Source: Gimesia sp.
GTDB taxonomy: Bacteria > Planctomycetota > Planctomycetia > Planctomycetales > Planctomycetaceae
DNA: 64,000 bases
Direction: 5' to 3'
Assembly (NCBI RefSeq): GCF_040219335.1
Contig: NZ_JAVJSQ010000020.1
Span: 186,001 to 250,000 of the forward strand
This document shows, in pieces, positions 51,076 to 63,233 of this stretch; position 1 is the first letter of the stretch; each line of letters starts with the position of its first letter. The position numbers were made by a program, and so were the translations under genes. The notes under the pieces were generated by a model, which did not search any database, had not been told where the DNA came from, and worked only from the letters and a program-made list of their open reading frames with translations.

Positions 51076-53004
51076 TTACCGGGCCTGAGGAGCGGGCGGT
51101 AAATTGGTCTGCGGTACAATCTGAATCGCATTGAACATGGAATAATCGCTGTCCGCACGAAAGCTGGTCAGGGTCAGTTCCTGGCCCGTCTTGATGTCAA
51201 AATCGAAGCTGACGTACTGCACGCCTTCGCGGTAGGGCTGATTGCGATAGTTCCAGGTGCCGTCACTGGCGGTCGCTTTCTGACCGATGATGCGCTTACC
51301 GACTTTGAGTTCAATTTTCGCGTTCTGATTCGGTGCATCACCGTGCGCGAAGACATAGATTTTGTATTTCCCGGCCGGCAGATCGAGGACCCTGGTCTGC
51401 AGATCGACACAGCGGCAGTTGTGATAGATGTACCCCTGAAAGATGCCGGACTGGCCCTGAATGCCCCACTCACCATCGTGCCGGGTGACACGCAGGCGAA
51501 CGGTGCTGGGCATGGCATCGCTATACCGTGTGTAGTCAACCGCGGTCGTGCCGAGGTCAACCATGTTCCAGATATCCTGCGGACGCCCCACGACGCCATC
51601 GTAATTTCCAATTCCCGGATCGTGGGCAAAGACGATATTCAGTGAACGGACCGCGGGACGGTTCTCTTCGAATACCCGAGGTTGCTGTTTACCATTTCTG
51701 AGCATGACCTTTCCCGGAGGCTGAGGAAGCGGCTCCTGAACGCTGGTCTGTGCTGGGAGCTGTTGTGATTGTGCCACGGCTTTCAACAGGACATCCGGTC
51801 CTCCGCTGGGTTCGGACTTCGCGTGGGCTGTGATTTTTGCATGTGTCTGCAGCGGCCGATCGAGTCTCACTACCTCCTGTATCTGGGGTAGATCAGCAGA
51901 TGCGTCTATCGCGAAGGCGACCGGGAGGATTGCCAGTAGACTAGTCAGCGCGACAAAGGTGAAGGTGAGTGCCAGTCGCGTGCGGAGGCTGGCCGGACGT
52001 CGGTCGCGGGTCTCCTGTAGGATGGACTTCAGGCGGCGGGAAAACCCACTCTCTGCAGCCAGCGAGACGGCTGTCAGTTTCAAGCTGCGGCTGGATCGAA
52101 ACGCGGAGACTACCTGCAGGAGTTGATCTGCATAGTCAGACGCCCGGGTGCCGTGCTGCAAAACGATGTCATCGCAGGCATGTTCGCGTTCGAGATAGAG
52201 TTTCCGTGAGGCGAACCAGACCAGGGGATGAAACCAGTAGCAGGCGTGTGTCAGTTGTACGAGCAGTTGCCAGAGACAGTCGCGTCGGGCCACATGCGCC
52301 AGTTCGTGCAGCAGGGCACAGCGGACTTCCTGTTCCCTCCAGTTCTGTGCTTCGCGGGGCAACAGAATCGAAGGACACCTTACACCCCACGTCATGGGGA
52401 GCGAACGTTGATCGGTCGTTAACAGGGAGACGGATTGAGAACAGTTCAGTTCAACGCGACATTGTTGCAGCAGATCGAAGAGCGGCCCCTCTGTGATGAT
52501 GTTACATTGTCTGCTGAAAGCGTGGAGGCGAAACTGCAGCAGCGCCAGCCGAAACAGCATCACCAGAACTCCCGTCAGCCAGATAGCATTCCAGTGAATG
52601 CCGATACGCGGGAGGGATGCAGCGCTGTCTTGTGCGTTCTGAAGTTGTGTATTACAGGCCGCTGGAAGCTTCATATGGGCCGCAGGCTGTGCTGAGACTT
52701 CAGGTAAAGATCCTGGGAGCGTCTGTTGCGTGCTGCTGGTCACGGGTGTGGAGAAGGACGATGCTGTTTCCTGAGTCGCGAGCGCTGGTCGCGTCAGCTT
52801 GGGCATACTCCCGTTGACGAAGAATAAGGCGAGCACCGCCAGCAGGGCGCCGCTCCAGACCGTGTGACGAACGGCTGCACTGGCCTGTGGCAGCAGTCGC
52901 GTGGCGACCAGTGCGACGAGCAAGATCACAGTCGACTTGATAATCAGGTCCAGCAGGAAATCAGGCTGCCCGATGAACGGAATGGATTGCAGAATCGTTT
53001 GCAT
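51076..53004 (-). CDS. BlaR1-like M56 metallopeptidase sensor with beta-sandwich ectodomain
   Basis: 642 residues. Four membrane segments (about 20-37, 50-64, 139-157, 345-365) frame the M56 peptidase. Its zinc site is LLHELAHVARRD (HELAH at 233-237) and EREHACDD (about 272-279), as in BlaR1. The C-terminal ectodomain (about 370-642) is not the penicillin-binding fold. It has a Pro-rich linker and then a beta-rich domain (RSLNIVFAHD, VRLRVTRHDGEWGI, LPAGKYKIYVFAHGDAPNQ, FNAIQIVP) resembling carbohydrate-binding or malectin-like modules. It is encoded 3 bp after the BlaI-type repressor gene and should relay a signal by degrading it. The ligand is unknown. Confidence 0.88.
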   Translation of the reverse strand: MQTILQSIPFIGQPDFLLDLIIKSTVILLVALVATRLLPQASAAVRHTVWSGALLAVLALFFVNGSMPKLTRPALATQETASSFSTPVTSSTQQTLPGSLPEVSAQPAAHMKLPAACNTQLQNAQDSAASLPRIGIHWNAIWLTGVLVMLFRLALLQFRLHAFSRQCNIITEGPLFDLLQQCRVELNCSQSVSLLTTDQRSLPMTWGVRCPSILLPREAQNWREQEVRCALLHELAHVARRDCLWQLLVQLTHACYWFHPLVWFASRKLYLEREHACDDIVLQHGTRASDYADQLLQVVSAFRSSRSLKLTAVSLAAESGFSRRLKSILQETRDRRPASLRTRLALTFTFVALTSLLAILPVAFAIDASADLPQIQEVVRLDRPLQTHAKITAHAKSEPSGGPDVLLKAVAQSQQLPAQTSVQEPLPQPPGKVMLRNGKQQPRVFEENRPAVRSLNIVFAHDPGIGNYDGVVGRPQDIWNMVDLGTTAVDYTRYSDAMPSTVRLRVTRHDGEWGIQGQSGIFQGYIYHNCRCVDLQTRVLDLPAGKYKIYVFAHGDAPNQNAKIELKVGKRIIGQKATASDGTWNYRNQPYREGVQYVSFDFDIKTGQELTLTSFRADSDYSMFNAIQIVPQTNLPPAPQAR

Positions 53005-53007
53005 CGT

Positions 53008-53391
53008 TTAGTTTCCTTTTTCTCGAGCTGCTTTAATCAGTTTGACCATTTCGCGTAATTCGTCGTCCGAGAGGGCTTCGTCATCACTGGCGAGCTGTGC
53101 TGCCAGTGCCTGCTTGAAGGAACCATCAAAGAAAGTCTGAACGACATGTTTGAGGGCTTTGGTGCCTTCCGGGCGTCGGGGAGACGTGGGTGCGTAAACA
53201 AATTCACGCCCCTGCTTGTGCCTCTGGATCAGCGACTTGTCCATCAGGATGCGGAGCATGGTGCGAATTGCAGTGGGGGTGGGCGGACTGGGCAGATCGC
53301 TCTGGATCTCCAGCACGGTCGCTTCCCCGCGCGAATAAAGCGAATCCATGATCTGGCGTTCCCGCCGACTGAGTTGGGCCTGTTGTGACAT
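53008..53391 (-). CDS. BlaI/MecI-family transcriptional repressor (system 1)
   Basis: 127 residues from the ATG at 53391, which has AGGAAA 6-7 nt upstream. LSRRERQIMDSLYSRGEATVLEI and TAIRTMLRILMDKSLIQRHKQGREFVYAP form the winged-helix DNA-binding domain. The C-terminal helices (QTFFDGSFKQALAAQL, DDELREMVKLIKAA) dimerise. It is expected to repress its own operon with the M56 gene; two matching inverted repeats lie in the promoter region. Confidence 0.92.
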   Translation of the reverse strand: MSQQAQLSRRERQIMDSLYSRGEATVLEIQSDLPSPPTPTAIRTMLRILMDKSLIQRHKQGREFVYAPTSPRRPEGTKALKHVVQTFFDGSFKQALAAQLASDDEALSDDELREMVKLIKAAREKGN

Positions 53392-53424
53392 GGGCTGTTT
53401 CCTGTGCATGGCAGCAATTGTTAC

Positions 53425-58883: not shown

Positions 58884-59402
58884 TCAGTCTTCACCTGTGA
58901 CACGATCCCGGTATGCTTCCCAACCTGCGAAACCTTTCTGCAAAAAGGCGCCCAGTTCTTCAGCAGAGGCAAGAATAAGTACATCAGGCCAGCGGGAAGC
59001 CACCCGATCTGCCACTTCGCGCGAGGTGACCAGGGGACGCGTCTCTTCCATCGCGGGAAGCATGACCATGTTTCCCGCCTCGGCCAGAGCATAAAGCACG
59101 TTGAGAATTTCCGTGGTCAGTCCACGCAAGGCAGCCATACCTCCTGAGACATCGGCATCGGAGTCCAGGTGATCCATAAAAAGTTCAAATCCGGAACCAT
59201 CGGAGAAATCAAACTGGTAACAGTTGGAGTCCAGTGGCAAGGTCGCTCCATGAGACGTCAGCAATTCACGTAACGCATCACGGTCGGCCGGTGAAAGAGA
59301 CTCCCCCACCGGCTTCTGCATGACTTCGCCAGTAAAAGGATTCACGGCTTCCTCGGTCTGATCACTGAGGCGAGACGTCTGGAAGAAAATATCAAAACTC
59401 AT
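58884..59402 (-). CDS. Soluble protein of unknown function
   Basis: 172 residues. MSFDIFFQTSRLSDQTEEAVNPFTGE, then FDFSDGSGFELFMDHLDSDADVSGGMAALRG, suggest a compact alpha/beta protein. The start resembles small planctomycete and myxobacterial hypothetical proteins. No signal or membrane segment and no recognised family. Confidence 0.6.
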   Translation of the reverse strand: MSFDIFFQTSRLSDQTEEAVNPFTGEVMQKPVGESLSPADRDALRELLTSHGATLPLDSNCYQFDFSDGSGFELFMDHLDSDADVSGGMAALRGLTTEILNVLYALAEAGNMVMLPAMEETRPLVTSREVADRVASRWPDVLILASAEELGAFLQKGFAGWEAYRDRVTGED

Positions 59403-59504
59403 GGGAGTTCCTTTGGATTCTGACGGAGAGCGTGGGAATTCAATTTCAGGTCAGACTAACTGTTGCGGGACGACAGTTCAATTAGAATTTTAATGTGCCA
59501 GGGT

Positions 59505-62500
59505 TTATTCAGCCTCTGAAGAGGGAGAATTCAGATCGCCGAGAGAGATTTGGCCGAAATCGTGAGTGTTGCCACTTGTTGTCTGAAAACGCAGATGGAT
59601 GCCATTGGGCGTTTTATACCGCGTATGAGAGAGCGACAGGTAGTGCTCGAGCCCTGGTAACACACCTTTGAGGCGGAAAGAACCATCGGCGGCGGTGGTC
59701 GTGAGTTCTCCGACAGCCGTGTAAGTGTCGCGGTCGCCCTGCTGCTTTCGATAGAGAACAATTCGCGTGCCGGCGATCGGCGCGCCGGTTGGTTCGTGCA
59801 CAGTCCTGCCTTCCACAAAGCCGAGCTGCTGCAGTTGGACTTCGATTGGCTGTTCGAGAGGAGCATTCTGTGGGGGACGCTGCACCAGTAATTGCGCGCC
59901 GAGCGTATCGTCGGCATTGCGGATGACAACTTCGTGCAACTGTTTTTCCTGATCGGAGAAATCCGTCATGAAGAGCTGATCGAGCCGATACTCTCCCCGT
60001 GCATCGGAGACACCATGAATGGGTATAAAACTTTGAATGACGCTCCCATCCATCAACTGAACCGATCGTGTGCTGGTTGCCGCAGTGCGAATGTCGGCCC
60101 CAGGGACCGGTTGGCCCTGGGGATCTTTGATGATAAGTTGAATGCGGGGTGCCGGCTGCAGTTCGATGACAGGTTGGCTGTCAGGCCCCTTTTGTGAGAC
60201 GCTGACTCGTTTTGCGGGCTGTGGCTGCGAGGAGTTGAATTGAAAACCCCGAATGCGCCCCCGCGTCTGGAAGGCAAATTCTCCCGACGGACAGTGAACC
60301 AGAAAATAGCCGTCGGCATCAGTCGTCACAACGTGAGGTGGATGCAGGTGCGGAGTCTCAGGAATGAACTGCGATTGCTGCAGGTTCCAGGCAACCGGGG
60401 CATCTGGCACGCCGGCTCCTGTTGCCTCGTTGATCACGCGACCGCGGACCGGAATTCCTTTTGGCAACCTGATCTCGACTTCCAGCAGACGCGTTTCCGC
60501 GGGCCACGTGAAGAGGTTGCTGTAAGCGAGGTAGGCAGTGTGTTCCGGCGGATAGACGGTTGCCAGGAACTGCGTCTGTTTGAGATGCATGATTTCGATG
60601 ACGCCGTCCTGATCGTGCTGGCGAGGAGGGACCTGGTAGCTTTGTTGATCAGGGATATATCGCACTCCGGGAATCAGTATTCCCGTTTCATCATCGACAA
60701 CCCGCAGACGGAGACGGTACCCCGGTTCCAGTGTCACTGCGATCTCGCCGGTCTGGACCGGACGTTTCGACAGGGCTTCCATCTCGGGGGCCAGTTGAGG
60801 AACGGTCGCTGCGTAGAGATCGTGCAGCAGGTATTCGGGATGCGAGACCTGCAGGCAAAGTCCCCGCTCTGCGACGAGCCCTTTGAGTTCAAAGCGACCA
60901 GTGGCATCGGTTGTGGCCACGGGCGCGTCCCGGAAACCATCGAGGGCGACAAACTGGCGATCCTTCCCGCTGGGCCAGCGTCCCTGCTCCAGGTCAGCCT
61001 GTGTGATGTGCCGGAGTGACATCAGATGTTTGAGACGCACTTCGGCGTGGGCAACGGGCTGACCTGCTTCATCTATCACGCGGCCCGTTGCTGCAGTCGG
61101 CTTCTCAAGGGTCAACCTGATGTTGGTCACCGGTCTGGTGGTGAGCACGTGCTTCCAGCCCAGGGCATAGCCATCCTTCAAAGCGACGAGATCAACGGGG
61201 GCGAACACGCGATCCTGTTCGACATACAGTACGTCTACAAAACGGAATTTTCCCTGTGCATCGGTGGTTGTGCGTGCCAGATCCTGCCAGGGTCTGGGAA
61301 TTCCCCGACCGCTGCGGGCACGCATCGACTGTCGCAGATAGACGGTGGCTCCGGCAACAGGTTTTCCAGCCGAATCGAGGACCTTTCCAGACAGATCGGG
61401 AACCGGCACACCGTCTGTGACAAACCGCTCAATCGACGGCGCTGCATCGTGACTGTGGACCGATTCTACTACCGGTGATTTCTCTACCTGCTGTAATGCT
61501 ACGTTTGACCGGGATACCAACCCGAGTGAGAACATGCAGAGAGCCAGACAGATCCAGAGAGCAATCCCCGATCCCGAACCAGCGCGTTTCAACCCCAGCA
61601 GGGCGTGAATGCGGATGGTGAGATCACTGCCTGTTGCTGCTAAGGCAGGTGACGGGAGTTGTGCCTGTTCGGCGAGGGAAAGCAGTGCCCGGGAAAAGGT
61701 GAGTTTGTCTGCGGTGAGTGCGACGACCGCGGCATCGCAGGCGAGTTCCCGCTCGAGCCGGATGCGGCGGGAGAGCCAGTAGACTCCCGGATGGTAAAAG
61801 AACAGGGTTTCAATCAGGCATTGCAGGAGATTGACCAGGAAGTCGTGGCGGCGGAGATGGAGCAGTTCGTGCAGTAACAGGCACTCGATCTCTGCGGGAG
61901 TGAGTGTTGTAAACAGGGATGCCGGCAGGAGAATGACCGGCTTGACCCAGCCGAGCGCTTGCGGCACTTGGACCACGGAGGATTCGATCCAGCGGATGGC
62001 ACGCGTGAGCTCAACCAGATCTGCCAGTTGGTTCACGCGGGCAGTCCATGCATCGCGCAGGGGCCTACCGTTGCTGACATGGTTGCGTACGATCAGCCAA
62101 CCGCCGATCATTCGCAAAGATAAGATGACCACGCCACAAGCCCAGACTGCGACCAGCCAGGGGAGCGTGTTTACCAGAGCAGAAACCTGGAAGAGACCTG
62201 GTTCGTTTGGGGGAAACGGCTTTGCATCAGTCGAGCTCGGTGCTCTGGACGCTGCAGGAGACTCTGCTCCCTGAAGAAGTCTGTCTGTTGAAGTAGTTCC
62301 CACTTCTGGAACGTGGGCGAACGGAGCGGCGTTTGTCGTCGATTGAGCTCCTGTGGCCGGCGTTTCGCGCTGAATGTGTTCTCCCAGGTTCAGCCAGGTG
62401 ATGACAGGGCAGAGCAGCATCAGGAACAGGCAGCCGGTGGCCAGCAGATAGCGGAGTTGAGCCGATTGCCGCTGACATATCCAGAGTACCACCCAGGCCA

Positions 62501-62597
62501 GCAGCGCGAGCGCGGCTCCCTGCCAGACGAAGTGCAGCAGTACGGCGCCCCAGTGGGTCACCAGCGGATGATTCAGGAATTCGTGGAATCCATTCAT
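59505..62597 (-). CDS. Giant BlaR1-like M56 metallopeptidase with carboxypeptidase-regulatory-like repeats
   Basis: 1,030 residues. Membrane segments at about 20-41, 48-68, 145-165 and 343-363 bracket the M56 peptidase; the zinc site is LLHELLHLRRHD (HELLH at 243-247) and RELACDAAVVAL. The ectodomain (365-1030) is a string of beta-sandwich modules of the CarboxypepD_reg type: LSGKVLDSAGKPVAGATVYL, ATGRVIDEAGQPVAHAEVRL, VRGRVINEATGAGVPDAPVAW, IIKDPQGQPVPGADIRT and a last EGRTVHEPTGAPIAGTRIVL. No penicillin-binding domain is present. The start overlaps the repressor stop by 4 bp. Probably signals by cleaving the adjacent BlaI. The ligand is unknown. Confidence 0.88.
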   Translation of the reverse strand: MNGFHEFLNHPLVTHWGAVLLHFVWQGAALALLAWVVLWICQRQSAQLRYLLATGCLFLMLLCPVITWLNLGEHIQRETPATGAQSTTNAAPFAHVPEVGTTSTDRLLQGAESPAASRAPSSTDAKPFPPNEPGLFQVSALVNTLPWLVAVWACGVVILSLRMIGGWLIVRNHVSNGRPLRDAWTARVNQLADLVELTRAIRWIESSVVQVPQALGWVKPVILLPASLFTTLTPAEIECLLLHELLHLRRHDFLVNLLQCLIETLFFYHPGVYWLSRRIRLERELACDAAVVALTADKLTFSRALLSLAEQAQLPSPALAATGSDLTIRIHALLGLKRAGSGSGIALWICLALCMFSLGLVSRSNVALQQVEKSPVVESVHSHDAAPSIERFVTDGVPVPDLSGKVLDSAGKPVAGATVYLRQSMRARSGRGIPRPWQDLARTTTDAQGKFRFVDVLYVEQDRVFAPVDLVALKDGYALGWKHVLTTRPVTNIRLTLEKPTAATGRVIDEAGQPVAHAEVRLKHLMSLRHITQADLEQGRWPSGKDRQFVALDGFRDAPVATTDATGRFELKGLVAERGLCLQVSHPEYLLHDLYAATVPQLAPEMEALSKRPVQTGEIAVTLEPGYRLRLRVVDDETGILIPGVRYIPDQQSYQVPPRQHDQDGVIEIMHLKQTQFLATVYPPEHTAYLAYSNLFTWPAETRLLEVEIRLPKGIPVRGRVINEATGAGVPDAPVAWNLQQSQFIPETPHLHPPHVVTTDADGYFLVHCPSGEFAFQTRGRIRGFQFNSSQPQPAKRVSVSQKGPDSQPVIELQPAPRIQLIIKDPQGQPVPGADIRTAATSTRSVQLMDGSVIQSFIPIHGVSDARGEYRLDQLFMTDFSDQEKQLHEVVIRNADDTLGAQLLVQRPPQNAPLEQPIEVQLQQLGFVEGRTVHEPTGAPIAGTRIVLYRKQQGDRDTYTAVGELTTTAADGSFRLKGVLPGLEHYLSLSHTRYKTPNGIHLRFQTTSGNTHDFGQISLGDLNSPSSEAE

Positions 62598-62980
62598 TCT
62601 GATTTCTCCTCGAGTTGGTCCAGGAGTTTGCGGAGAGATTCAATTTCCGCGGGGGTGACTTTGCGCAGGGAGAGTGCCTGCATGACGAGTTTTTCAGTGG
62701 CACCGCCAAACGCCTGCCTGACCAGGTCGTCGATCAGTTGGCGTTGCGTCTGTTCCGCCTGTATTGCGGCGTGGTAGATATGCGACCGGCGGGATTCGTC
62801 GCGGGTGACGAGTCCTTTGTCAGCCATCTTCTGCAGGATTTTGAGCGTGGTGGTGTAGCCGGTCTCTTTGCCTTGCGAGAGGATTTCGTGAATCGCCCGG
62901 ACGGTCGCCGGCCCGTGCTCCCAGAGGACAGAGAGGATTTCCAGTTCAGCTGTGGTGGGTTTGGGGCGTTGCTGGTTCAT
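62594..62980 (-). CDS. BlaI/MecI-family transcriptional repressor (system 2)
   Basis: 128 residues from the ATG at 62980. PTTAELEILSVLWEHGPATVRAIHEIL and YTTTLKILQKMADKGLVTRDESRRSHIYHA are the winged-helix BlaI/MecI domain. The C-terminal helices (DLVRQAFGGATEKLVMQALS, AEIESLRKLLDQLEEK) dimerise. The ATG is only 6 nt from the predicted -10 and has no Shine-Dalgarno, so a leaderless mRNA is likely; a GTG at 62998 lies inside the operator and is rejected. It should repress its own operon with the giant M56 gene. Confidence 0.92.
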   Translation of the reverse strand: MNQQRPKPTTAELEILSVLWEHGPATVRAIHEILSQGKETGYTTTLKILQKMADKGLVTRDESRRSHIYHAAIQAEQTQRQLIDDLVRQAFGGATEKLVMQALSLRKVTPAEIESLRKLLDQLEEKSE

Positions 62981-62986
62981 GCCGGC

Positions 62987-63015
62987 AATATACGACACGA
63001 GTCGTAGTTTGTCAA
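62987..63015 (-). promoter_or_regulatory. Promoter of blaI system 2
   Basis: TTGACA (63010-63015) and TATATT (62987-62992) with a 17-bp spacer on the minus strand: a near-consensus sigma-70-type promoter. The -10 ends 6 nt before the ATG at 62980, so transcription should start at or just before the start codon. Confidence 0.72.
62991..63006. promoter_or_regulatory. Proximal BlaI operator, system 2
   Basis: Perfect 6-bp inverted repeat TACGAC-ACGA-GTCGTA lying inside the spacer between -35 and -10 of the blaI promoter. Binding would block RNA polymerase directly. Confidence 0.75.
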
Positions 63016-63029
63016 CGACGTTTGTCGTA
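63014..63029. promoter_or_regulatory. Distal BlaI operator, system 2
   Basis: Inverted repeat with half-sites ACGAC and GTCGT around a 4-bp spacer (GTTT), overlapping the -35 box; centred 23 bp from the proximal site. Confidence 0.72.
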
Positions 63030-63233
63030 CTTCAATCCCATGACTCCCATCGATGGTGGCTGACACCTGCTCTCGAACCCCGCTTTCTGGCGATTCTTTT
63101 CTGAATTCCCGGTTTAATTTGCTCATATGTGCAGATAGAATCAGAACCCATTTCCGAACCAGGAAACACGCGCCCACTCAAACCCTTATCAGAACAAGCC
63201 AGACTGGGCAACTATCCCGAGGTCGATTCTCCC
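63030..63233. other. Divergent region between blaI system 2 and the FGE-like gene
   Basis: About 200 bp holding the promoter of the plus-strand gene at 63234. No additional copy of the operator motif is seen in it. Confidence 0.4.

Follow-up and report, generated by a model that had tools for sequence, protein, structure and literature searches.

A planctomycete BlaI-M56 operon with tandem operators in its promoter and a chain of transthyretin-like modules on its BlaR1-type protease: a candidate self-regulating circuit

To our knowledge, BlaR1-BlaI is known almost solely as an antibiotic-resistance switch, and signalling in Planctomycetota is poorly known. The autocleavage loop of S. aureus BlaR1 is at Ser283-Phe284. 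BlaR1 and MecR1 of Staphylococcus and Bacillus are proteins of about 600 residues with a gluzincin membrane core and a penicillin-binding sensor domain, and they adjoin a gene for a BlaI-family repressor (BlaI or MecI), with more than one operator before the operon. The zinc ligands of BlaR1 are H201, H205 and E242, and D210, Y261, D246 and R294 also matter (PMC9834060). CopY/CopR, of the same repressor family, likewise has two operators before its operon, with a 16-bp operator frame RNYKACANNTGTMRNY (PMC7253601). A further type of membrane-bound regulator is represented by ECF sigma factors that carry a transmembrane extension at the C-terminus, e.g. ECF48/52/53 (review PMC8999054). The Gimesia locus described here appears to be a variation on the regulated proteolysis of BlaR1-BlaI; what is new is an operon promoter interleaved with tandem TACGAC-N4-GTCGT[T/A] dyads. 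A literature search, with subscription papers mostly outside its coverage, found none on M56-CarboxypepD_reg proteins or on a planctomycete expansion of BlaI/M56.

The M56 gene occupies 59505-62597 on the minus strand of the window, i.e. the whole 64,000-nucleotide stretch analysed. The open reading frame begins with ATG, shares its first 4 bp with the end of the BlaI gene and encodes a BlaR1-type membrane metalloprotease of 1,030 aa. Pfam places Peptidase_M56 (PF05569) at residues 108-330 (E=9e-40, 137 bits against a cut-off of 31) and CarboxypepD_reg (PF13620) in five separate stretches (E=5e-31). An AlphaFold2 model from 26 sequences (mean pLDDT 77, pTM 0.48) has a core of helices, a loop of low confidence at residues 78-137 and a final membrane helix at 343-369, followed from residue ~397 to 1019 by almost exclusively beta strands. 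These form a beta-sandwich chain that divides into six modules, whose orientation relative to one another is unreliable. The membrane core and gluzincin protease (residues 16-323; 61629-62552, minus strand) best match S. aureus BlaR1 8exs (Z 19.4, 249 residues, 5.0 Å), the best match other than BlaR1 being Ste24p (Z 12.0). For individual outer modules, the matches are to the carboxypeptidase D TTR domain (Z 11.1, 1.4 Å, 81 residues), the SusC N-terminal extension and Cna-B domains of pilins. The first-pass annotation had described five or more CarboxypepD_reg repeats and an outer part built as a chain of transthyretin-like modules, and both descriptions agree with the Pfam stretches, the model and the fold matches. 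The six TTR/CarboxypepD_reg-like modules span residues ~396-1019 (59541-61412, minus strand) and are predicted to be periplasmic or extracellular. Unlike in SusC and Cna-B pilins, the chain is fused to M56, and neither a TonB-receptor barrel nor a sortase signal was seen.

The protein is far longer than BlaR1 and MecR1, as first noted, but it is no isolated case: among the 150 listed M56 frames of the phylum, 64 reach at least 900 aa. It scores 94.7 bits against the NCBIfam BlaR1 cut-off of 400 (NF000326). A penicillin-binding (transpeptidase-like) domain was not found in it by Pfam with E up to 1. Since that domain is missing from the Pfam result and residues 396-1019 are TTR-like modules, we rejected beta-lactam sensing.

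The zinc ligands match those of BlaR1. By alignment, H243, H247, E284, D252, F301, D288 and R329 are the counterparts of BlaR1 H201, H205, E242, D210, Y261, D246 and R294, in that order. The first six belong to the core segment, with the motifs H243-E-x-x-H247 and E284-x-x-x-D288, and R329 lies just past it. The H-E-H, D, E, D and R residues are kept in all 52 aligned BlaI-paired M56 proteins across the phylum, so relatives with an inactive site, which would have spoken against a signalling protease, did not appear in this set. A real oddity is F301 (61695-61697), which replaces the Tyr backing the first zinc His in BlaR1; Phe is also present in L030 and in the twin encoded by G012, a second genome of the genus, and Tyr in most relatives. 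The G012 counterpart is 98% identical along its entire length, and a full-length remote relative from another family (L128) is 37% identical in M56 and 32% in the outer part, which indicates that the gene is maintained. Used as a query of the genome contigs, the full-length M56 protein returned no relative and a paralog query nine loci.

The partner gene, at 62594-62980 on the minus strand, encodes a BlaI-family repressor (Penicillinase_R, PF03965; E=3e-27, 95.7 bits against a cut-off of 22.6), an assignment in line with matches to solved MecI/BlaI structures. Translation probably starts at ATG 62980 rather than at GTG 62998, because the latter sits within operator 2. The ATG lies ~7 nt past the -10 box (62980-62992), as it does in G012 and G165, and with so short a distance the BlaI transcript may be leaderless. 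In family, number of operators and 16-bp frame the repressor resembles CopY; however, it scores 54.1 bits against the NCBIfam CopY cut-off of 121.95 and has zero cysteines, hence no CxC metal motif. CopY-like metal sensing was rejected on this ground.

Pairing of BlaI with M56 is usual across the phylum. The source genome has 14 M56 genes and 17 BlaI genes, and every one of the 14 lies directly behind a same-strand BlaI, with a gap of -26 to +56 bp that is often -4. Three BlaI genes (G000:C37:830, C5:269247 and C14:148072) have no same-strand M56 directly downstream. BlaI is linked to M56 in 27/27 loci of relatives, a rate biased by the choice of some loci by similarity, and in 29 of 32 further loci. 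Of the 150 M56 genes listed for the phylum, no fewer than 127 stand beside BlaI, a lower bound because among the 23 misses at least three, each of them in the source genome, do have one; for listed frames of at least 900 aa the count is 58/64. The genes overlap in 74 of 85 pairs, and over these 85 pairs BlaI and M56 distances are strongly correlated (Mantel r=0.81; largest of 1000 permutations, 0.09). A lack of linked BlaI genes elsewhere, which would have undercut the first-pass annotation, is thus contradicted by the counts. They also bear on a different reading, in which M56 would be a membrane quality-control protease with other substrates, BlaI would only set its dose and the outer modules would be non-sensing spacers or an adhesive stalk. 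The fold in common with Ste24-type proteases would suit it, as would the TTR/Cna-B-like chain, typical of pilins and adhesins; yet the distance correlation and the near-constant coupling point to BlaI as the partner, and we consider this reading very improbable.

The region upstream of BlaI, TACGACAAACGTCGTTGACAAACTACGACTCGTGTCGTATATTG, carries two dyads of the form TACGAC-N4-GTCGT[T/A], 23 bp apart from centre to centre. A sigma-70 promoter is predicted from the sequence at 62987-63015 (minus strand), with -35 TTGACA (63010-63015), a 17-bp spacer and -10 TATATT (62987-62992), and these boxes overlap and enclose the dyads. Operator 1, TACGACAAACGTCGTT (63014-63029, minus strand), overlaps the -35 box at its first bases, and operator 2, TACGACTCGTGTCGTA (62991-63006, minus strand), lies mostly within the -35/-10 spacer. 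The layout is similar in relatives, and the tandem operator scores above all 100 dinucleotide shuffles at both sizes. The operator of BlaR1-BlaI is, in contrast, TACANNTGTA.

An exact search of 392 planctomycete genomes with the pattern TACGAN6TCGTTGACN(1-7)TACGAN6TCGT gave six matches, against none for the reversed pattern. All six lie directly upstream of BlaI and five head a BlaI-M56 pair; in the sixth (G424, L168:1397-2773) the M56 frame is short and followed by a small frame, and the gene seems broken. A seventh tandem-operator locus, L128, was found via protein similarity. The tandem-operator BlaI proteins included in the tree fall in one clade (support 100/96), although not in a single subclade, and sister subclades have related tandem dyads, ACGA-N6-TCGT or GCGA-N6-TCGC, with altered flanks in the same place. 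Position, recurrence and clade tracking suggest that the tandem dyads are operators to which BlaI would bind.

The window holds a first M56/BlaI pair at 51076-53409 on the minus strand, with a 642-aa M56, a 133-aa BlaI, its own tandem operator, CGCTAAAAAATTAGC[T/G], and the word GCTAAAAAATTAGC twice. Its BlaI (L004 in the tree) falls in another clade than that of the 62594-62980 repressor, which bears out the earlier view of two distinct pairs built alike. Other paralogs of the source genome have further words: TAGAC[A/G]TATGTCTA twice (L021), TCTAATTATTTAGA twice (L020), TTTAA..AATTAAA twice (L019) and one BlaI-like CACTACAAATGTAGTG (L017). Among the 14 paralogs, less than half have tandem dyads that score above all shuffles.

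The pair lies in a ~6.7-kb segment that starts at 59436, fills the window to 64000 and ends at ~66123 in window numbering. It is present in the source genome (G000) and G012, whereas the two sister genomes G005 and G001 lack it, although their flanks are ~92-94% identical on both sides; it may have been gained in the G000/G012 line or lost in the others, as both fit. The segment holds the M56 gene, BlaI, an FGE-sulfatase-like gene and one further gene, and no integrase was seen by eye among its ORFs. The FGE-sulfatase-domain gene (63129-64505) is divergent, runs beyond the window, has its intergenic region in common with BlaI and could be co-regulated. A 172-aa gene at 58884-59402 was rejected as a conserved third gene serving as target; it is outside the variable segment and not beside remote relatives.

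Which genes BlaI would control is the point at which two readings part. BlaI/MecI and CopY control targets besides their own operons, and by analogy the M56 protein could be a conventional sensor whose BlaI also acts on genes elsewhere in the genome via single or degenerate operators, or on the divergent gene at 63129, with which the pair has intergenic region and variable segment in common. One intergenic single operator match (L161) would fit such a regulon. However, the single-site count in the source genome is not above the reversed control, almost every other single match falls within an ORF, and inspected ORF lists show no FGE-sulfatase-like gene beside the pair in L128, L129 or L136. 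We therefore think a wider regulon unlikely. A pattern search of the 7.9-Mb source genome found no second tandem operator of the TACGA type, and no beta-lactamase or other target was found here, unlike in BlaR1-BlaI. With single sites at control level, this suggests that the product of the circuit would be the surface protein.

The domain build, zinc ligands, gene coupling, tandem operators, clade tracking and exchange of outer parts can all be read from the DNA, and the reading we prefer and hold to be probable is an autoregulated, closed BlaI/M56 circuit. BlaI would bind the two tandem operators in its own operon promoter and keep the operon shut. The M56 protein would be held in the inner membrane by its BlaR1-like core, with the zinc protease facing the cytoplasm and the six modules outside. 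Engagement of the outer chain by a ligand, by cell-wall or polysaccharide contact or by damage would switch the protease on, which would then cleave BlaI and induce the operon; more of the surface protein itself would therefore be made. Three observations count against the closed circuit: the small share of paralogs with tandem dyads above all shuffles, Phe at 301 where BlaR1 has Tyr, and the seemingly broken M56 gene at the tandem-operator locus L168. The architecture of a one-operon M56-repeat-BlaI unit, as first proposed, is confirmed; its sensor role is putative, and the operators suggest a unit that regulates itself and not a wide regulon.

The outer parts vary widely around this core. 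CarboxypepD_reg is above cut-off in 8 of the 14 source-genome paralogs, one of which ends in AhpC-TSA/redoxin; other paralogs have DUF1559 or weak TPR matches in its place. Among the 52 BlaI-paired M56 proteins of the phylum, a few of them chosen by similarity, at least 16 have CarboxypepD_reg and single proteins have LysM, AcrB-type, PDZ, secretin N0 or PEGA domains, these counts being lower bounds as the ends of the loci truncate many frames. Inside the one BlaI/operator clade, the six TTR modules of the query are replaced by TTR with a WCGPC thioredoxin (G204), thioredoxin with DUF3738 (G165), SLBB/polysaccharide export (G113), or beta-helix, NosD, TTR and AhpC-TSA in a protein of 2,094 aa (G129). 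Conversely, L129 has an outer chain in common with the query (33-36%) and a BlaI in another clade. As judged from these sequences, the operator-BlaI-M56 core appears to be a chassis with an exchangeable outer part.

Long CarboxypepD_reg chains are also joined to ECF sigma factors through a hydrophobic segment (L130:3366-6569, L131:3474-6845, L138:2423-6202 and L139:3888-6851). These related TTR chains, which come from other members of the taxonomic class and are 24-28% identical to that of the query (blastp), liken the locus to ECF48/52/53-type sigma factors, whereas its output module is a protease and a repressor. More tentatively, and with the balance somewhat against it, Planctomycetota may use a plug-in chassis. 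Tandem operator, BlaI and M56 core would travel as a unit with its own operator word per copy, which would allow a dozen or more copies per cell without cross-talk. The exchangeable outer parts would be sensor and effector in one, the only product being the surface protein, and would come from a parts pool common with membrane-bound ECF sigma factors.

In summary, the protease-repressor core of a resistance switch is a multi-copy family in Planctomycetota, and its outer parts show no beta-lactam-binding domain. The operator words let the wiring of each copy be predicted from sequence, which makes both the insulation of paralogs and the closed-loop idea directly testable.
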